Shown here one piece after another: positions 32,959 to 43,275 of a stretch of DNA of 45,723 bases (position 1 is the first letter of the stretch; each line of letters starts with the position of its first letter). Source of the DNA: Acidobacteriaceae bacterium. Lineage in GTDB: Bacteria; Acidobacteriota; Terriglobia; Terriglobales; Acidobacteriaceae. The notes under the pieces are model-generated. The model had not been told where the DNA came from and ran no database searches. It saw nothing but the letters and a program-made list of their open reading frames with translations. Both the position numbers and the translations under genes were made by a program. The stretch is from assembly GCA_027365415.1 (NCBI GenBank), contig DAHXNK010000005.1, positions 1-45,723 of the forward strand, given 5' to 3'.

Positions 32959-34011
32959 CTAGCTTCCAATAAAACGAGCATACAGGCTCCGCGCCAGTCC
33001 GATATCTGTCGTGCCCTGAATCAGGGCGCGACCATCCTTGAAGATTGTCATGCAATACGTTCCGTGCTCGAAACGCAGCAACATGTCATTGTGGCGCACG
33101 GTGCCGTGTGCGCGCAGTTTTTCTTCGAGCAGAGAAAAATCCATTGGCCTGTGGTGTTCGTGAATCTGCACGGAATTTCTTCCGCAGAGCGTAATGTGAG
33201 GCCTCGCCTCGCCCGCCAGATGCACAAATTTTCGCTCGCCGCATACGGCGCAATCCGCGCGCGGTCGCGACGCATCCATCTCGGAGCGTTCATTGCTCCA
33301 CAAATCACAGGCCAGCAATGTGCGCCGCATGTGGTTGCGCGCGCCCACCAGATATTTCATCGCCTCGGCGGCTTCCACGGAAGCGGCAAGGTTGACGGCT
33401 GGATTGAGAATGCCTGCCGTATCGCAGGTCTCGACCATGCCCGACGGGGGCTGGGGGAAGATGCAGGTCAGGCAGGCCGTCTCTCCGGGAAGGATATTCA
33501 TGGTGACGGCGTAGGCTCCGACCGCGCCCGCGTAAATCCAGGCTTTCCCCTGCTCTACGGCATAGTCGTTCAGCAGGTAGCGGGTTTCATAGTTGTCGGT
33601 TGCGTCCAGGATTAAGTGCGCCGGTTGCAGCAGGGCGTGAATGTTGCCCGGAACCAGATCGTCCACATGGGCTGCTACGCGAATGTGGCGATTGCAGCGG
33701 GAGATTTTTCGTTGGGCGGCCACGGCTTTTGGCAGGGATGCTGCTGCATCTTCTTCGTCGAAAAGCACCTGCCGCTGCAGGTTGCTCCATTCCACATAAT
33801 CGCGATCAATGAGCGTGAGCGTGCCCACGCCAGCGCGGGCCAGCAGCCCGGCGACAGCCGCTCCCGTTGCGCCACAGCCGACGATGGCGACATGTCCCGC
33901 AGCCAGTTTTCGCTGTCCCTCAACTCCAATGCCAGAAAATAATGTTTGCCGGGAGTAGCGCTCGTTGCCTGGCTCGGTCGCGGATGATTCTCTCTGCAAC
34001 GCTGTATCCAT
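32959..34011 (-). CDS. ThiF/MoeB/HesA family adenylyltransferase
   Basis: This encodes 350 residues from the ATG at 34011. The ATP-binding E1-like fold shows [17 protein letters not shown] (about 45-61), [18 protein letters not shown] and the [14 protein letters not shown] motif. Two CxxC pairs (CLTCIF and CAVCGE) form the usual zinc site. A C-terminal part of about 85 residues beyond the E1 core ([16 protein letters not shown] to the end) is a separate small domain. ThiF/MoeB proteins adenylate the C-terminal Gly of a ubiquitin-like sulfur carrier for thiamine or molybdopterin. No carrier gene is adjacent. TATACT shortly before the ATG could be a -10 for a near-leaderless mRNA. Confidence 0.87.
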
Positions 34012-34197
34012 CGATTTCAGTATAGGCGCGCAGTCGCGGCTCCATTCTGAATCCATCGACGATGGCGCAGGGTTTGCGTATCCTTAGGGAAAGAGGCGCG
34101 ATCCGCGAGTGTGGGGCGGACGTTGAAGAAACTGTGCGCTTGCGGATGCCGCTCGACCCAATCGAAGCGGCGATCAAAAATCCTTCTTCGGTACTGA

Positions 34198-37100
34198 ATG
34201 AGTGTGTTGTTGAGCCAATGCAAACCGAGAGCGAGAGGCGTGTTGTTACGGGGATGGTGGCAAAGTATTCTTGCCCTGTGCCTGCTGTTCCATGCGCCGT
34301 TGCCGCAGGTTAGGGCCGCGATGCGGCAGGCGGTCGTGCCGCACTCGTCTATTTCGTCTGTAACTCCGGCTCGGCGAACGAACCTCAACAGCATGGCAAC
34401 GTTGCAAGCGTGGAATGGACGCAAAGTCGTCGCGCTTCGTTTTGAGGGCGTAACGGCACAGAATCTGGCTCCTCTACCCACGCAGCTTGCTCTGCGTCCC
34501 GGCGCGCCCTTTCAGGCATCCGCGCTGCGTACCAGCCTCCGTCAACTCTTTGCTTCTGGCCTCTACACGCAGATTACGGCGCTGGGCATTCCAGAGGGCG
34601 ATGCGGTGGTCATTCTCTTTCGGGGAGAGCCGCAAAAATTTCTGCATCGCGTGTATGTGGAGGGAGTCAAGCAGGATTTGTTCGCGGCGCAGTTGCAGCG
34701 GGGCACGCGGCTGGAGATTGGAACAAAATTTACGTTCCAGTCCTTGCAGCAGGCAACAAAATCCCTGCGCGCCACGCTGCGGCAATCAGGCTACGATCAG
34801 CCACAAATTGATGTGACGACCCGGCCTGCCGCTGCCACAAATCAAATCGATGTGGTGTACCACATTCTGCTGGGAAAACAGGCCAGAGTTGGGGCCGTTG
34901 TTGTCTCCGGCAACGCTGGCATGACCATAGGAAAATTTCGCAAGGTTGCCAAGTTGAAGGATGGCTCCAAAGTGCAGGCGGATACGTTGTCGCGTGCGCT
35001 GGAGAGGCTGCAAAAGAAGTATCAGAAGAAGGGCCGACTGGAAGCCACGGTTAAGGGGAATGAGAAGCAGTTCGACGCTGCAAAAAATACGGTTGATTTC
35101 ACGTTTTCCGTGAATCCTGGGCCGCTGGTTCGCATCCGCGCCACGGGGGCGCATGTTTCCTCCGGGGATTTGAAGCGTCTCATTCCCGTTTATGAGGAGG
35201 GGGCCGTCGATCCCGATTTGTTGAATGAAGGAGATCGCAATTTGCGCGATCACTTTCAGAAGCAAGGCTATTTTGATGTGCATGTGACTCATACGATGCG
35301 GCATCCGGCGGCAGGAGAGGATTTTCTTCTCTACAAGATTGAGCGCGGATTGCGACAAAAAGTCGTCGCGGTGCAGGTTCAAGGCAATCATTATTTCGAT
35401 GCGGAGACGGTTCAGGAACGCTTGAGCGTGACGAAGGCCGATCTGTCAGATCGGTATGGCAGCTTTAGCCAATCGCTGCTGGAGCATGATGTCGATGCCA
35501 TTGCCGCTTTGTATAAAAGCAATGGCTTCAGCAAGGTGAAAATTGTTCCGCATGTTGTGGATTCCAACCTGAAAAAAACTGTTGGGCGCAAGATATCTTC
35601 CGGGTTGAAGGTGGAGTATCAGATCGAGGAAGGCCCGCAGCAACGTGTTGGCACGGTGCAGCTTCTGGGGGTAGCGCAGGTCGCATCGGAAAAATTATTG
35701 CAGCAGATGAACACGCGATCCGGCCAGCCCTATTCGCTGTCCAATCTTGCCGGAGATCGCATGACCATCCTCGCTTACTATTATCGGCATGGTTTTTTGC
35801 AGATCGAGATGACGGTTACGCAGCATGTGGATGCAAAAGATCCGAATTTGATGGATATCGCATTCAATATCGAAGAGGGAAAGCAATTTTTTGTGAATCG
35901 CATTCTGACCAGTGGCATCCACTTCACGCGCCCGCAGGTTGTCAACAACCTTATTGAACTGCATCCCGGCGATCCGCTGGATCGCAGCAAGCTAATGGAT
36001 ACGCAACGTCGCCTGTACAATCTCGCGCTGTTCAGCTCGGTGGATACGGCGGTGGTCAATCCCCACGGGGAGCAGCAAAATAAAGATGTTCTGCTTAATA
36101 TTTCCGAGGCGCACCGTTGGAATTATGACTATGGTTTAGGCTTTGAGGTGCAGACGGGAACGCCGCAAAAGAACTGTCCGTCGGCGGCATCGTTGATCCA
36201 GTTGGGGGTCAATCCCACGACCTTTCAATGCAGTCCGAATGGTACATTTGGAGCCAGCGAACGCATTTCCTTTGACATCAGCCGCATCAATTTACGGGGC
36301 AGAAACCAGTCCATCACCTTGCAAACGGCGTACGGAAATTTGGAGAAGCAGGCCATGATGGTCTTTGATAATCCAAAGTTTTATGGGCATCGCACGCTGG
36401 ATTTTGCCATCTCCAGCGGCTATGTGCAAAGCCAGGATATTACGACGTACAGCTCCTCCAGCATTTCGGCCTCCGGCACGCTTACCAGCCGACCGAACAA
36501 GCCAAATACGCTGATGTATTCCTTCGAGTATCGCTACATTACCCTAAGCAACCTAGAGATTAGCGCCAATTTAATCCCGCTGCTCTCCCAGCCCGCGCGA
36601 GTTAGCGGGCCGGGCATCACTTGGGTGCGGGATACGCGGGATGATCCGTTGAATGCAACGCGCGGTTGGTACTTGTCCGCGCAGCAATTTTTTGCCTGGT
36701 CGGGCTTTGGCGCGCAGGCGAACTTCAATCGTCTGGATGTGACGCAGGCCAATTATTTCCGGCTGCCCAAAAAGAACTGGATTCTGGCCCGCAGCACGCG
36801 CATTGGCATGGAGAATATCTATGGCAATCCCAGCTATGGCACTATTCCGCTGCCGGAACGCTTGTATGCTGGCGGAGCCACTTCGCATCGTGGATTTTCC
36901 ATTAACTCCGCTGGACCGCGAGATTTGCAGACAGGCTATCCGGTGGGTGGATCGGGAGCTTTCATCAATACTACGGAGTTGCGTATTCCTCCCATCGCGT
37001 TGCCGTGGATGGGCAAGGATTTTGGATTCGCAATTTTTAATGACATGGGCAACGTCTATGACACGGCAAGCGATATCTGGCGCGGCTTGTTTCGTTTTAG

Positions 37101-37347
37101 CCAGCCCAACCTCAGAACCTGTTACAACATCTCTGGCCAAAATGGGGTTTGCGATTTCAATTACAACTCCCAGGCCATTGGGGTTGGCCCGCGTTACAAA
37201 ACCCCGATTGGCCCGATTCGACTGGACTTCAGCTATAACTTAAATCCAACCATTTATCCCGTGATTCTTAGCTATAGCGGACGGCCACCGTATGTGGGGA
37301 ACTCCGGGCACTTTAATTTTTTCTTTAGCGTGGGGCAGGCATTCTGA
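34198..37347 (+). CDS. Omp85 family outer-membrane assembly protein (BamA/TamA-like)
   Basis: This encodes 1049 residues, longer than usual BamA (about 800). A signal segment (about 20-40) is followed by a long series of POTRA-like repeats up to about residue 640 (for example VVAVQVQGNHYFDAETVQERL and FFVNRILTSGIHFTRPQVVNNLI, in parts). A C-terminal 16-strand-type barrel (about 640-1049) ends FNFFFSVGQAF with a terminal Phe. Omp85 proteins insert beta-barrel proteins into the outer membrane. Two Cys pairs lie in predicted loops (NCPS/FQCSP and RTCYN/GVCDF). It heads the unit Omp85, SurA-like, TamB, with an 8-bp gap to the next gene. Confidence 0.93.
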   Translation: MSVLLSQCKPRARGVLLRGWWQSILALCLLFHAPLPQVRAAMRQAVVPHSSISSVTPARRTNLNSMATLQAWNGRKVVALRFEGVTAQNLAPLPTQLALRPGAPFQASALRTSLRQLFASGLYTQITALGIPEGDAVVILFRGEPQKFLHRVYVEGVKQDLFAAQLQRGTRLEIGTKFTFQSLQQATKSLRATLRQSGYDQPQIDVTTRPAAATNQIDVVYHILLGKQARVGAVVVSGNAGMTIGKFRKVAKLKDGSKVQADTLSRALERLQKKYQKKGRLEATVKGNEKQFDAAKNTVDFTFSVNPGPLVRIRATGAHVSSGDLKRLIPVYEEGAVDPDLLNEGDRNLRDHFQKQGYFDVHVTHTMRHPAAGEDFLLYKIERGLRQKVVAVQVQGNHYFDAETVQERLSVTKADLSDRYGSFSQSLLEHDVDAIAALYKSNGFSKVKIVPHVVDSNLKKTVGRKISSGLKVEYQIEEGPQQRVGTVQLLGVAQVASEKLLQQMNTRSGQPYSLSNLAGDRMTILAYYYRHGFLQIEMTVTQHVDAKDPNLMDIAFNIEEGKQFFVNRILTSGIHFTRPQVVNNLIELHPGDPLDRSKLMDTQRRLYNLALFSSVDTAVVNPHGEQQNKDVLLNISEAHRWNYDYGLGFEVQTGTPQKNCPSAASLIQLGVNPTTFQCSPNGTFGASERISFDISRINLRGRNQSITLQTAYGNLEKQAMMVFDNPKFYGHRTLDFAISSGYVQSQDITTYSSSSISASGTLTSRPNKPNTLMYSFEYRYITLSNLEISANLIPLLSQPARVSGPGITWVRDTRDDPLNATRGWYLSAQQFFAWSGFGAQANFNRLDVTQANYFRLPKKNWILARSTRIGMENIYGNPSYGTIPLPERLYAGGATSHRGFSINSAGPRDLQTGYPVGGSGAFINTTELRIPPIALPWMGKDFGFAIFNDMGNVYDTASDIWRGLFRFSQPNLRTCYNISGQNGVCDFNYNSQAIGVGPRYKTPIGPIRLDFSYNLNPTIYPVILSYSGRPPYVGNSGHFNFFFSVGQAF

Positions 37348-37355
37348 GTATTCCG

Positions 37356-38150
37356 ATGGAGAGACAATCTAATCCGAAGATTGGCTGGCACGGGTTTCTG
37401 GCGCGTAGAGTTGTTGTCGCGGGAATGCTGATGGCGATGGCGTGCGTGGCGGCGACCGTGCTGGGGGCGCAGTCCTTGCCGCCCAAACCAAAAATAGAGG
37501 ACAGCCAGACGGCGCAGTCGGTGGAACTGGATCACGTGGTGGCCGTGGTAGGAGACCAGGCGATTCTGCAAAGCGATGTGGAGGATGAGATGCGCTTTAC
37601 CACGCTGCAATCGGCAGATATTCCCATGTCGAAAGATGCGCCACAACGCGCGCTCAATCGACTCATCGACCGGGCGCTGATTGAGAAAGAACGCGCCTTG
37701 CAACCCTCATTTTCTGCCGTGAGCGACGCGCAGGTGGAGCAAAGCATCGTCGAACTCAAGAAAAATATTCTCGCTTGTGCCCATGCTGCATGTTCCACGG
37801 ATAAGGGATGGACGGATTTTCTCCAGACGCAGGGGTTCACCGAGCAGGACATTTATGTCCGGATGCAGGAGCGATTGCAGGTTCTAAAATTTATTGACTG
37901 GCGCTTCGGTTCCACGGTTCGCATCTCAAAAAAGGAAGTGCAGGCTTATTACCAGCAGGTGCTGCTTCCGCAGTTTGCTCTCGCAAAAACTCCTGCGCCA
38001 GCGGTGACAAAAATTGAGACGCGCATTCGCCAGATACTACTGGAACAGCACATCGCGGGCCTGCTGGATGGTTGGCTGAAGAGCCTGCGAAGCGAAGGCG
38101 AAGTGCATATTGTCGATCCTGCCTATGCCAGCGTGGGAGGGGCATCGTGA
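37356..38150 (+). CDS. SurA N-terminal-like periplasmic chaperone
   Basis: This encodes 264 residues. A signal peptide (about 1-38, ending VLGAQ) is followed by a SurA_N-type chaperone domain (about 57-195: LDHVVAVVGDQAILQSDVEDEM, split as LDHVVAVVGDQAI and LQSDVEDEMR; ALNRLIDRALIEKE). No parvulin PPIase domain is present, so it should be a chaperone only. Cysteines in ILACAHAACS may form a disulfide. SurA carries unfolded outer-membrane proteins through the periplasm to the BAM machine. It sits between the Omp85 and TamB genes and overlaps the TamB start by 1 nt (TGATG). Confidence 0.82.
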   Translation: MERQSNPKIGWHGFLARRVVVAGMLMAMACVAATVLGAQSLPPKPKIEDSQTAQSVELDHVVAVVGDQAILQSDVEDEMRFTTLQSADIPMSKDAPQRALNRLIDRALIEKERALQPSFSAVSDAQVEQSIVELKKNILACAHAACSTDKGWTDFLQTQGFTEQDIYVRMQERLQVLKFIDWRFGSTVRISKKEVQAYYQQVLLPQFALAKTPAPAVTKIETRIRQILLEQHIAGLLDGWLKSLRSEGEVHIVDPAYASVGGAS

Positions 38151-41100
38151 TGTCGTTCGCGCCACAGCACGACCCGCAGCACGGCTCGCAGCATGATCCG
38201 AGGCCGCAGTCGGGCAGACATCGGCGGCATGTCGCCTATGCTGTTGTAGCCACGATTCTGCTGGGGTGTGCGATCTTTGCGGCGTTGTATGGATACATCG
38301 CTTCGAAACATTTTTCAGCGCGCATACAAGCCGCCGTGATTGCTACGCTGGAACGGGCCACGGGCGGACGAGTGGAGATCAAAGACTTCCACTGGAGCGC
38401 CATCCATCTGCGCGTACAGGTGGATGGCCTGACAATTCATGGGCTGGAAGCGGCGGATCAGATTCCTTATTTTCACGTCGATTCGATTGAGATTGACGCC
38501 AAAATACTTTCTTTCTTCACGCCGCGTATAGGGCTTTCGCGTTTGCGGGTGGAGCGGCCTGTCTTTCATCTCATCGTGTATCCAGATGGTTCCACCAACC
38601 AGCCGCGTCCCAAGACGCAGAGCCAAAATTCTTCCTTGGCGCAGACCTTGTTTGATTTGGCCGTCGATCAGACGCAGGTGCAGGATGGCTTGATTCTTAT
38701 CAATAATCGCAGGATTCCCTTTGATCTGGCCGCTGGGAAGCTGGGACTTTTGCTGCGATATGTCGCAACCACGGGGCACTATCAGGCATCTCTTGCTGTG
38801 CGGGATCTTACCTTTTGCCTACAAAATGCGAAAGAGTCGCGCTCCGTCCTTTTTGCGGATATCGACGTTGCGCCGAAGACAACCAACATCACGCGCCTAG
38901 AGTGGGACACGGCATCCTCCAAGTTGACGCTGACTGGGTTGCTGGAGCATTACGCGCATCCGGTCTGGAGCGGTACCGTGCAGGGGCAGGCCGATCTGCG
39001 GGAGGTGGGCGCAATCACCGGATATGCTCCCTTGCGGAGCGGAACTGCTGACCTTCATCTGCGCGGCGCGGGTCGAGCGGACGGAGAATTTTCTCTGGAT
39101 GGAATTTTCTCCGTGCAGCACGGAGCCTTTGATGCGCCGTGGTTGCAGTTACAGCAGGTTGCGTTGCAGTCGCGCCTGCATATCGACAACACAACGTTGA
39201 GGCTGTCGCAGTTTACCTCGGATTTGCATGGACAGGGCCAGGTAAACGGAAGGATGGAACTGACGCATTGGCTGTCCAGCCCGCCGCCCGCGCCGATGCC
39301 AGAGAAGAAACATTGGTTCCGTACAAAAAAGAAATTTGTTGCGCCACCGCCGCAGCCGTTGCAGGCCGTGCTGGAGGCTACCGTCGTCGATCTCTCCACT
39401 CCACTAGTGATGGCCGCAGTGGCTCCGTCGCGGTTTGGCGATATCGGTTTCAGCTCGCAGGTGACAGGGCCGGTGCGCGCCACCTGGCACGGTCCTGGCA
39501 ATGCGCTGGACGTGCATGGCGACCTTACGTTTCGACCGCAGCGCAACTCTCGCGCGGGAGCCATTCCCGTTAGCGGTTCGGTGAAAGCGGATTATCTGGG
39601 AGATACCACGCGCCTGGTTTTTCAGCAGGCGGACATCTTCACTCCGGGGACGGAGGTTCATGCAGCGGGCACGCTGACGTTGCTGCCGAATGATCTGCAA
39701 AGCGCGATACATGGCACAGCGACGGTGCAGAATCTGCGTGAATTTGATCGTTTGATTTATGTCATTTTCTACACCTTGCCGACGTCTTCTGCTGCCGAAG
39801 TGCGCGGGCCATCCTTTGCGGACTATTCCATGCTGCCCGTGTATTTGCAGGGGAAGGCATATTTCCACGGAAAATTTTCTGGCTCGCTGATGGAGCCGCA
39901 GGTGGATGGGCATCTGGACATGCAGCGCTTTCTGACGCAACTGCGTGGTTTTACTTCGGGGCCTGTGGTGACGTTTCCCGCGCATCCCAGCCATCCGCTG
40001 CAATGGGATTCGCTTCATGCCGATGTCCACTACACCCTCCCGGAGATTGATGTTCATCGCGCTGTCATGACCCGTGGCTCGACCCTGCTGCGCGCCGACA
40101 TGCAGTTGCGCCCTGTGCCGATGGGCCAAGATGTTTACGACTTCAAGGCGCAAAGCGGCTTGGTGGCGAATGTTCGCGTGACCAACGCATCCATCGCAGA
40201 CCTGCAATCTATTGTGGGGACAAGGTATTCCGTGACTGGAACGGCATCGGCGAATGCGCAGGTGCGTGGCACGATTGAGAATCTCTCCGGCTCTGGCAAC
40301 CTGATCTTGACCGACCTCAACGCATACGGCCAGCCGATTGCGTATATTGCATCTCCGCTCAGTGTCTCTGGCCATCGGGTGCAGGCCGACCACATGCTTG
40401 TTCGCGTGGCGAACGGCACGGCGGAAGGGGAATTTTCCTACGACGATGCCTCTCATGCCATGCAAGGCTCTTTGGGCGGGAAACAATTCGACCTAGCGCA
40501 AATTTCATTTTTGCAGACGAAGCGCGCCTCCGTCGGGGGTATGGGCAGCTTTCATCTGCGAGCTGCGGGCACGACGATGAACCCCATCGCTACAGGCTCT
40601 GTGGCGATCGACAATGTGACGTGGAATGGACAGCCGATGGGGCAGGCGCAGGTGGAGGCAAATCTTCAGGGAAAAAGAGTATCGCTTACTTCGAGCGCGC
40701 AACTGTTGCAGGCGCATCTGGAGGCTGCGGGCCAGATGCAACTGACCCCCGGACTTCCGGCGCAACTTCAATTGAAATGTACGGACTTCAATCTCCATCC
40801 GGTGTTGCAGATGTTTTCCAGCGCGGGAATGATCGATGCCTCGTCCATCGGCGGCGAAGTTCAGATGGATGGCTTGCTGGAGCAGCCGCGCCAAATGCAC
40901 GCGGAGGCCAATCTGGATCATTTTTCTGTCACCGCGAATGGCATTCCTTTGGTGGCGGATGGGCCGGTACGCGCCTCCATGCGCGCGGGCGTGCTGGAGT
41001 TGCAGCCCGTCCATATTCAGGGCACGGACACCGATCTCAAGATGCAGGGCACAGCCCAATTTTTAGGGAAGCAGCGTCTGCACATGCAGGCTGAGGGAAA

Positions 41101-42349
41101 GATTAATGCTGCGTTGGCCAAGACGTTCAGCGGCGATCTGAATGCTTCCGGCCAGATTAATTTCATCGCGGACATTGGGGGAACCGTGCCTAGGCCACAA
41201 CTTTCTGGACGCGCCCAAGTACACAATCTGGATGTACATGCGCAGGACGTGACCAATGGCCTGAGCGGGATGAACGGCACGTTGACCTTCGATCAGGATC
41301 GTCTGGTCATCCAGCACCTGAACGGGTATACCGGCGGGGGCAAGGTGGAGATCACAGGCTTTGCCACCTTCAGCGATGGAGTTTTTTTCAATATCTCGGC
41401 ACAGGCCAAGGATGCCCGCATCCGCTATCCCAAAGGTGTTACATCCACGGCCAATGTGGATGTAAATCTTAGTGGATCGTCGGACGCGCTTTTGTTGCGT
41501 GGCGACGTTACGTTGACCCGCTTTGAAATCAGTCAGAGTGTAGATATCGCCGCGCTGGCCGCTGCCAGCCAGTCGATAAGCGCGCCTCCAGACCCGACAT
41601 CCTGGTTGAATCGCGTGCGTCTCGATATGCAGCTTACCTCGTCGCCACAGCTTGGCTTTCAAAATTCCTTTGCAACGCTAGCCGGGGACGTGCATCTCCA
41701 CATACGCGGAACCTTGGCGAATCCCTCGGTTCTTGGACGCCTGGATATCACGCAGGGCAAGGCGGATTTTGCGGGCACGCAGTATGTGCTGCAACGCGGC
41801 GACATTATGTTTGCCAATCCGGTGGCGATTGATCCAGAAGTGAATCTGGAAGCAACGACGCGGGTGCAGGATTATGACATCATCATCGGATTGAACGGGC
41901 CAGCCAGCAAACTTCAGGTGAACTATCGCTCGGAGCCGCCGCTCTCGCAGCCTGACGTGCTGGCGCTGCTGACTCTGGGGAGAACCAACGAACAGGCTGC
42001 CATGTATGGGGAGCAGCAACAGGCGGGCAGCAATCCAACCGAGGAGGCGCTGCTGGGTGGGGCGCTCAACGCCGCCGTTAGTAACCGCGTGCAGCGGCTC
42101 TTTGGCGTGGCCAGCGTTCGCGTGGATCCCAACTTTGTCGGCGTTCTGGGCCAATCGACCGCACGCGTTACGGTCGAACAGCAAGTGGGCCGCAACATCA
42201 CTCTAACGTTTGCCACCAACGTCAACACCACAGCGCAGCAGTTGTTGCAGGCGGAGTATGATTTCACACGGAATCTTTCCATTATTGCCGTGCGCGATGA
42301 AGCGGATGTTTTCAGTCTCTATTTCCAGATACGCGGCAAGCGATTCTAA
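38150..42349 (+). CDS. tamB: translocation/assembly module protein TamB
   Basis: This encodes 1399 residues from the ATG at 38150 with GGAGG about 9 nt upstream. A short cytoplasmic His/Gln-rich start (1-25) is followed by a membrane helix (about 29-50) and an AsmA-like domain. A very long beta-rich periplasmic groove with recurring short strands (pattern G-A-x-L-x-GxL/I) follows. The conserved C-terminal TamB domain (about 1230-1399; QPDVLALLTLGRT, VASVRVDPNFVG, ITLTFATNVN) ends with RGKRF. TamB spans the periplasm, working with an Omp85 partner in barrel assembly or phospholipid transport to the outer membrane. The gene order here fits that partnership. Confidence 0.92.
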   Translation: MSFAPQHDPQHGSQHDPRPQSGRHRRHVAYAVVATILLGCAIFAALYGYIASKHFSARIQAAVIATLERATGGRVEIKDFHWSAIHLRVQVDGLTIHGLEAADQIPYFHVDSIEIDAKILSFFTPRIGLSRLRVERPVFHLIVYPDGSTNQPRPKTQSQNSSLAQTLFDLAVDQTQVQDGLILINNRRIPFDLAAGKLGLLLRYVATTGHYQASLAVRDLTFCLQNAKESRSVLFADIDVAPKTTNITRLEWDTASSKLTLTGLLEHYAHPVWSGTVQGQADLREVGAITGYAPLRSGTADLHLRGAGRADGEFSLDGIFSVQHGAFDAPWLQLQQVALQSRLHIDNTTLRLSQFTSDLHGQGQVNGRMELTHWLSSPPPAPMPEKKHWFRTKKKFVAPPPQPLQAVLEATVVDLSTPLVMAAVAPSRFGDIGFSSQVTGPVRATWHGPGNALDVHGDLTFRPQRNSRAGAIPVSGSVKADYLGDTTRLVFQQADIFTPGTEVHAAGTLTLLPNDLQSAIHGTATVQNLREFDRLIYVIFYTLPTSSAAEVRGPSFADYSMLPVYLQGKAYFHGKFSGSLMEPQVDGHLDMQRFLTQLRGFTSGPVVTFPAHPSHPLQWDSLHADVHYTLPEIDVHRAVMTRGSTLLRADMQLRPVPMGQDVYDFKAQSGLVANVRVTNASIADLQSIVGTRYSVTGTASANAQVRGTIENLSGSGNLILTDLNAYGQPIAYIASPLSVSGHRVQADHMLVRVANGTAEGEFSYDDASHAMQGSLGGKQFDLAQISFLQTKRASVGGMGSFHLRAAGTTMNPIATGSVAIDNVTWNGQPMGQAQVEANLQGKRVSLTSSAQLLQAHLEAAGQMQLTPGLPAQLQLKCTDFNLHPVLQMFSSAGMIDASSIGGEVQMDGLLEQPRQMHAEANLDHFSVTANGIPLVADGPVRASMRAGVLELQPVHIQGTDTDLKMQGTAQFLGKQRLHMQAEGKINAALAKTFSGDLNASGQINFIADIGGTVPRPQLSGRAQVHNLDVHAQDVTNGLSGMNGTLTFDQDRLVIQHLNGYTGGGKVEITGFATFSDGVFFNISAQAKDARIRYPKGVTSTANVDVNLSGSSDALLLRGDVTLTRFEISQSVDIAALAAASQSISAPPDPTSWLNRVRLDMQLTSSPQLGFQNSFATLAGDVHLHIRGTLANPSVLGRLDITQGKADFAGTQYVLQRGDIMFANPVAIDPEVNLEATTRVQDYDIIIGLNGPASKLQVNYRSEPPLSQPDVLALLTLGRTNEQAAMYGEQQQAGSNPTEEALLGGALNAAVSNRVQRLFGVASVRVDPNFVGVLGQSTARVTVEQQVGRNITLTFATNVNTTAQQLLQAEYDFTRNLSIIAVRDEADVFSLYFQIRGKRF

Positions 42350-42453
42350 TTTGGGAAGATGGATGCAGAAAGAAGAATCCCTCCTGTATGATTCGGGCCG
42401 GGGCCATGCGGAGAAAAATACAGCGTGGTGCCGCGAAGGGAGCAGTATCCATA

Positions 42454-43275
42454 ATGCGATCCATAATGCAAGCGAGAATGCGGGATCTGTATCTGCCGAA
42501 ACGATGGATAACCCTCCGCGTTGTTGTAGGGATATTTCTTCTGGCCTGCGGGATAACGGCCAATGCGCGCGCCCTGTTGTCCGCAACAACGGCGGCGCAG
42601 GATGCGCAGATGCAGACAAAGATACAGAGCGCGTTGAAAGATAAAAAATATCGAAATGTGACAGCAAGCGTCAGTAAGGGCGTTGTTACACTCTCTGGCA
42701 AAGTGGATTTGTATGTGTACAAGCTGGACGCAGTGAAAATATCCAGGAGCGTGGATGGAGTCCATCTCGTGCTGGATAACCTTGCAGTGGGTGGCTCCAG
42801 CGTGTCCGATCAGAAATTGCGACAGGAATTGCTGGAGAAAATCCAGACCAACCGCGCTGGATTCGGCCAGGTCTTTGATGCCATTACCGTGCAGGTGCAG
42901 GATGGCGTGGTCACGTTGGGCGGTCATGCGGTGGATCCAGCTACCATCGAGTTGACGGTTTCGCTGGTGGAATCCATGCCGGGAGTCCGGGGCATTGCCA
43001 ATAAAATTCAGGTCGATCCACTCTCCGCGATGGACGACCAGATTCGCATGGCGGAGTTCAATGCGATCTACAACTACAGCCCGCTGAGTGAATATAGTAT
43101 GGTTCCTGCGCGCCCAATCCGTATCTCTGTGCAGAACGGGAATGTGACGTTATATGGCGTTGTGGGCACGCAAATGGATAAAGATTTGGTCGGTCTGCGC
43201 GCCAGTCAGGTCTCCGGTATCCTTCGTGTCACCAACGATTTGATGGTGGCCTCCACGCCAAGCAAAAAACAGTAA
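42454..43275 (+). CDS. secreted BON-domain protein
   Basis: This encodes 273 residues from the ATG at 42454, with GGGAG about 11 nt upstream. Starts at 42388 or 42478 are also in frame; the latter gives the neatest signal peptide (core VVVGIFLLACGITANA). Three BON domains follow. The first has AAQDAQMQTKIQSALKDKKY, the second SVSDQKLRQELLEKIQTNRA with VTLGGHAVDPATIELTVSLV, and the third ends NVTLYGVVGTQMDKDLVGLRA. BON domains bind phospholipid or other membrane partners in the periplasm and protect against osmotic shock (as in OsmY). It lies behind tamB, which suits an envelope role. Confidence 0.83.
   Translation: MRSIMQARMRDLYLPKRWITLRVVVGIFLLACGITANARALLSATTAAQDAQMQTKIQSALKDKKYRNVTASVSKGVVTLSGKVDLYVYKLDAVKISRSVDGVHLVLDNLAVGGSSVSDQKLRQELLEKIQTNRAGFGQVFDAITVQVQDGVVTLGGHAVDPATIELTVSLVESMPGVRGIANKIQVDPLSAMDDQIRMAEFNAIYNYSPLSEYSMVPARPIRISVQNGNVTLYGVVGTQMDKDLVGLRASQVSGILRVTNDLMVASTPSKKQ

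Follow-up and report, generated by a model that had tools for sequence, protein, structure and literature searches.

Our results show that three adjacent genes of an Acidobacteriaceae bacterium, at positions 34198-42349 of the window (the whole stretch of 45,723 nucleotides analyzed here, contig DAHXNK010000005.1 of assembly GCA_027365415.1), are the organism's translocation and assembly module (TAM), and that this module stands beside a canonical barrel assembly machinery (BAM). The genes encode an Omp85 protein with a long chain of POTRA domains, a SurA-like protein reduced to the chaperone core, and TamB. On balance, we think it probable that the products form a trans-envelope TAM with its own chaperone, in which the SurA core would be docked on the long POTRA arm. 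The pairing of Omp85 with TamB is already known. What appears to be undescribed is that a SurA core belongs to the unit as its conserved third member, and that natural fusions of TamB with Omp85, presented below, exist: a literature search, with subscription papers and preprints outside its scope, found neither an operon joining SurA to TAM nor such a fusion protein.

The source is a metagenome-assembled genome of 2.09 Mb (90% complete, 202 contigs). In our reading of the open reading frames (ORFs), the three genes are co-directional on the forward strand. The Omp85 gene, in the position of tamA although its product is BamA-like (34198-37347, 1049 residues), ends 8 nucleotides before the start of the SurA-core gene (37356-38150, 264 residues), whose stop codon overlaps the ATG of tamB (38150-42349, 1399 residues) by one nucleotide (TGATG). 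These junctions bear out the compact three-gene unit of the first-pass annotation, a reading made from the sequence alone. Its identification of the third gene as tamB also stands: the product carries PF04357 at its C-terminus (1.9e-35, 41330-42331), an AsmA-like DUF748 N-terminus and, as read from the sequence, a hydrophobic N-terminal anchor at about 38231-38299. The start that it gave this gene, the TTG at 38072 of a longer ORF, is unlikely; the ATG at 38150 that overlaps the surA stop gives a protein of 1399 residues in which the anchor soon follows.

The assignment to TAM comes from the gene content of the genome, in which Omp85 genes number exactly two and tamB is single; a genome search found no third Omp85 and no second TamB. 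The assembly is incomplete and may lack another gene, but a close relative that is 99% complete (G001) also has two Omp85s. The other Omp85 gene, on contig C109, adjoins accD, and its product has five POTRAs by position-specific hidden Markov models (HMMs) and groups with proteobacterial BamA (97-99 in the SH-like approximate likelihood ratio test, SH-aLRT). A parvulin-type SurA is encoded on contig C161 (4294-6144 of locus L015); its match to the core family falls into two blocks (28-169 and 283-323), which flank the parvulin part. This protein also has a lysine/alanine-rich, low-complexity C-terminal tail of about 290 residues, which is unusual for SurA. A YfiO/BamD-like protein, a PpiC-like lipoprotein and PpiD are encoded elsewhere in the genome. 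Because the locus holds the only TamB, because there is no third Omp85, and because a five-POTRA BamA, a parvulin SurA and a BamD-like protein are encoded separately, we conclude that it is the TAM.

The first-pass annotation had raised another possibility, a fused BAM/TAM pathway, under which this locus would be the main route of barrel assembly. The Omp85 protein does score as a BamA equivalog (348.2 bits against a TIGR03303 cut-off of 297.15), and a hybrid of this kind exists in Borrelia, where the only BamA pairs with TamB (PMC13382580). Yet the separate BamA, parvulin SurA and BamD-like protein of the same genome largely refute such a merger, and its two Omp85s do not share a clade: that of the window lies among TamB-linked Omp85s (98-99% SH-aLRT), apart from proteobacterial BamA, with which only the C109 protein groups. 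We therefore regard the merged pathway as very improbable. A separate bamA and a separate surA are thus present, and a separate tamA-tamB pair was not found in the genome. The Omp85 of the window stays below the ATportTamA cut-off (72.8 bits against 625), and TamA sequences lie outside the clade of TAM-locus Omp85s, in a tree that is unrooted and has three groups, from which we claim no sister relation to TamA (Heinz et al. 2015, PMC4494059, do claim one).

The length of the Omp85 protein, which had been noted as unusual with a POTRA chain reaching about residue 640, is borne out by seven POTRAs against five in the organism's own canonical BamA. The protein matches PF07244 (2e-52) and PF01103 (5e-38, residues 698-1049), and five POTRA stretches pass individually. 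An AlphaFold2 (AF2) model, for which 36 relatives were used (mean predicted local distance difference test, pLDDT, of 83.5), and position-specific HMMs agree on seven POTRAs at about residues 74-639, seen in the model as beta-alpha-alpha-beta-beta units at 76-637: POTRA1 at residues 74-147 (34417-34638), POTRA2 at 148-227 (34639-34878), POTRA3 at 229-308 (34882-35121, also matched by Pfam), POTRA4 at 309-384 (35122-35349), POTRA5 at 386-480 (35353-35637), POTRA6 at 482-562 (35641-35883) and POTRA7, which adjoins the barrel, at 564-639 (35887-36114). The barrel itself (residues 641-1049, 36118-37344) has 16 strands in the model, an RGF motif and a C-terminal F. All seven POTRAs are aligned throughout in the Omp85s of trio loci (36 of 36).

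The second protein had been described as a SurA-like chaperone without peptidyl-prolyl isomerase (PPIase) domains, and several analyses agree with this description. Its own matches to SurA_N_3 and SurA_N are weak, just under the Pfam cut-offs, but a profile of 42 relatives aligns residues 28-165 with residues 42-181 of E. coli SurA (the N-terminal core) and residues 192-222 with 419-449 (the C-terminal core), skipping both parvulin domains, P1 and P2. The AF2 model is a compact fold (pLDDT 85.9), whose best solved Foldseek matches are the SurA chains of BAM-SurA complexes. The PPIase families searched gave no match in this protein, and a weak match to Rotamase_2 occurs in two of the 42 family members (best E 0.0017). 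The N-terminus has a hydrophobic segment resembling a signal peptide, and D74, equivalent to D41 of SurA, is D or E in 41 of the 42. One might see in this small gene a decaying paralogue, or a passenger that plays no part in the unit, given the missing PPIase domain and a sequence so poorly conserved that mean column identity in the family is 22%. But between the window and a congener the ratio of nonsynonymous to synonymous substitutions (dN/dS) is 0.17 for the SurA core, next to 0.09 for Omp85 and 0.15 for TamB. The gene is under purifying selection and, at this ratio, is not a remnant. Its product is also predicted at high confidence to fold compactly, and the gene is kept beside Omp85 in 23 family-level groups, in two gene orders. 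Decay is thus the least credible of the explanations that we considered.

In these same 23 groups TamB is kept together with the other two, and the contiguity of the trio is far beyond chance. An alignment of diverse SurA cores gave no conserved stretch for a genome-wide scan, and the scan was made with Omp85. The nearest named records to the Omp85 protein of the window are from Acidobacteriaceae, including the cultured Granulicella, Edaphobacter, Terriglobus, Acidipila and Acidicapsa. When loci of this family were anchored on Omp85 and had room downstream, the SurA core and TamB followed directly in 73 of 75; the trio was also contiguous in all 20 loci from close relatives, which had been picked by their SurA core. 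To go beyond the family, 149 Acidobacteriota genomes were searched for full-length matches to the core (ORFs mostly of 210-300 residues), as opposed to parvulin types, in which the match ends at about position 165 of the model. The trio was together in 26 of 40 full-length-core loci from other families (20 families; the gaps at L126 and L132 are 1.7 and 0.8 kb), and in two more the SurA core lay 1.5-4 kb off. At ten loci (L102, L103, L109, L111, L112, L118, L120, L122, L123 and L134) a full-length SurA core devoid of PPIase domains had neither Omp85 nor TamB for several kb around it. As a separate observation, TamB adjoins a short, TamA-like Omp85 with three POTRAs, and no SurA core, at L285 (genome G042) and L286 (G102), so that Acidobacteriota as a whole hold several types of TAM.

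The order of the genes is informative about partners. Inside the class of the window it is Omp85-SurA-TamB, and outside it is almost always TamB-Omp85-SurA, so that Omp85 directly precedes the SurA core in both. That this pairing is kept despite TamB switching sides suggests that the SurA core has Omp85 for its partner. The same pattern could arise if the SurA core were a private assembly factor escorting the long Omp85, or the C-terminal strands of TamB, through the periplasm without being a subunit of the machine. Such a role would account for the strict adjacency whichever side TamB takes, and for frequent translational coupling (in the family of the window, an overlap of 1 or 4 nucleotides between the Omp85 and SurA genes is usual). 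However, the general parvulin SurA is already available for that job, and the SurA core persists, unlinked, in genomes of family f26, where TamB is fused to a seven-POTRA Omp85. These points make a private escort improbable.

Fusions of this kind came to light among genomes in which no SurA core is linked: 11 Acidobacteriota genomes, from several families, encode TamB and Omp85 in a single ORF. We examined all 11 in full; ten are closed ORFs and one runs off its contig, and they span 2039-2428 residues with the order anchor, TamB, POTRAs, barrel. Three lie at 811-6927 of L276 (forward strand), 2414-8617 of L277 (forward) and 4699-11901 of L279 (reverse), and the others at L278, L280, L281, L282, L283, L284, L289 and L290. 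All seven POTRAs were matched in order in the two f26 genomes, four or five in seven genomes, and two in two divergent ones. The fusions sit inside the clade of TAM-locus Omp85s, where well-supported branches force at least three label changes. One comes from a 6.0-Mb genome in a single contig (G092), which argues against misassembly. A natural fusion implies that the C-terminal domain of TamB and the N-terminus of the POTRA chain would be adjacent in the working machine. It is thus strongly suggested, from comparison of sequences, that TamB is coupled directly to the POTRA chain, as the first-pass annotation had allowed for when it proposed that the chain may reach the chaperone or TamB. Such adjacency would be consistent with the contacts between TamB and TamA in E. 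coli, where TamB touches the POTRAs of TamA and pairs with strand 1 of its barrel (PMC12800296).

How might the three proteins work together? TamB would be anchored in the inner membrane, with its beta-groove spanning the periplasm, and its C-terminal end would engage the POTRA chain and the lateral gate of the Omp85 barrel, in a way that resembles the engagement of TamA by TamB. Docking of the SurA core would involve its N-terminal strand and the distal POTRAs, by analogy with the beta-augmentation that joins SurA to POTRA1-2 of BamA (PMC11970506). So placed, the core would keep client beta-barrel proteins unfolded on their way to the Omp85 gate; in SurA, the core without PPIase domains carries most of the chaperone activity (PMC2556385). 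Lipids may flow along TamB at the same time. The clients are probably outer-membrane proteins other than autotransporters.

Four observations weigh against this mechanism. The autotransporter domain PF03797 was not found in 31 genomes, including this one, so that the best-known clients of TAM are absent from them; its clients would then be different proteins of the outer membrane, or lipids would be transported by the unit as well. SurA of E. coli left TAM-catalyzed assembly unchanged in vitro (PMC11341756). In some families (14 of the 40 full-length-core loci outside Acidobacteriaceae) the SurA core does not adjoin Omp85 or TamB. Finally, the window has R115 in POTRA1, equivalent to the R64 of BamA that forms a salt bridge with SurA in E. 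coli, but this position is R or K in only 15 of 36 trio Omp85s. The R64-D41 bridge was considered as evidence for docking and dropped, because the window has it but the POTRA1 side is not conserved.

The lack of autotransporter domains could also mean that the unit is mainly a phospholipid bridge, in which TamB would carry lipids, Omp85 would be the outer-membrane socket, and the SurA core a structural or assembly factor instead of a chaperone delivering clients. The AsmA-like DUF748 N-terminus of TamB fits this possibility, and TamAB has been linked to phospholipid transport (PMC12800296; PMC11014939). On the other hand, the Omp85 barrel is intact as an insertase, with its RGF motif and a score that passes the BamA equivalog cut-off. 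Moreover, we know of no AsmA-family lipid bridge that otherwise requires a SurA core. We consider a mainly lipid-carrying unit unlikely, and the two roles are not mutually exclusive. A TAM with a dedicated SurA-core chaperone remains the reading that we prefer. It may be extended, tentatively and with somewhat more doubt than belief, to the Acidobacteriota at large, whose TAM might be a chaperone-integrated trans-envelope insertase with a client-binding SurA core as a standing subunit on the seven-POTRA arm and, in several lineages, TamB and Omp85 as one chain from inner membrane to barrel. If so, client handling, envelope spanning and insertion would be physically continuous, and the phylum would keep two parallel SurA-Omp85 pathways, a parvulin type for BAM and a core-only type for TAM.

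Further observations concern the genes around the trio. A three-BON-domain, OsmY-like periplasmic protein (42388-43275, forward strand, PF04972 matched three times) is encoded 38 nucleotides downstream of tamB, and a scan that performed no better on the locus than on shuffled sequences, for promoters and terminators alike, showed no terminator-like site between the two. Of 80 named Acidobacteriaceae loci, about 51 have a BON gene downstream of tamB, and in this family a UbiA-family gene, too, often comes after the trio. OsmY of E. coli was reported to interact with TamB (PMC8151025), and the BON protein may be a further accessory of the TAM. On the other side, a divergent gene of the ThiF/MoeB adenylyltransferase family (32959-34056, reverse strand) has its upstream region in common with the Omp85 operon. 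The pair is kept across Acidobacteriaceae, which suggests a shared promoter region.

These results bear on the function of TAM and on whether it receives clients from a periplasmic chaperone. The SurA and TAM genes are separate in E. coli, and a SurA core without PPIase domains tied to the TAM Omp85 across a phylum makes coupling between chaperone and TAM open to direct tests, in culturable genera such as Granulicella, Edaphobacter and Terriglobus. The fusions restrict the ways in which TamB can contact the barrel, because its C-terminus is not free there and continues straight into a POTRA domain. As trans-envelope complexes in a single chain, they should suit structural work.

Among known systems, the closest is that of Heinz et al. 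2015 (PMC4494059), who reported that Acidobacteria have, in an operon of the BamA-TamB type, a further BamA copy that in some cases carries seven POTRAs, and suggested that TAM arose from it. Ours is the same in phylum, in its BamA-like Omp85 with seven POTRAs, in the BamA-TamB order and in the presence of a separate canonical BamA, but that paper mentions no SurA, chaperone, peptidyl-prolyl isomerase or TamB-Omp85 fusion. The locus shares with the proteobacterial TAM (TamA-TamB, ytfMN of E. coli) an Omp85 partner and TamB in one operon, as a second Omp85 beside BamA. In E. coli, however, TamA has three POTRAs and tamB comes directly next with no chaperone gene, whereas here there are seven POTRAs and a SurA core lies between. 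The SurA core resembles E. coli SurA (1m5y; BAM-SurA complexes 8pzv and 9hg5) in fold, in its N-terminal core with the D41-equivalent D74 and in the strand and helix of its C-terminal core, but it lacks both parvulin domains, and its gene is tied to the TAM Omp85 instead of free-standing. A BamA-type Omp85 also pairs with TamB in the hybrid BAM-TAM of Borrelia burgdorferi (PMC13382580, PMC11361582), although BamA is the only such protein there and has five POTRAs, whereas a separate canonical BamA is present here. Finally, TamL-TamB of Bacteroidota (PMC12045153) is, like the locus studied here, a lineage-specific replacement of TamA as the partner of TamB.

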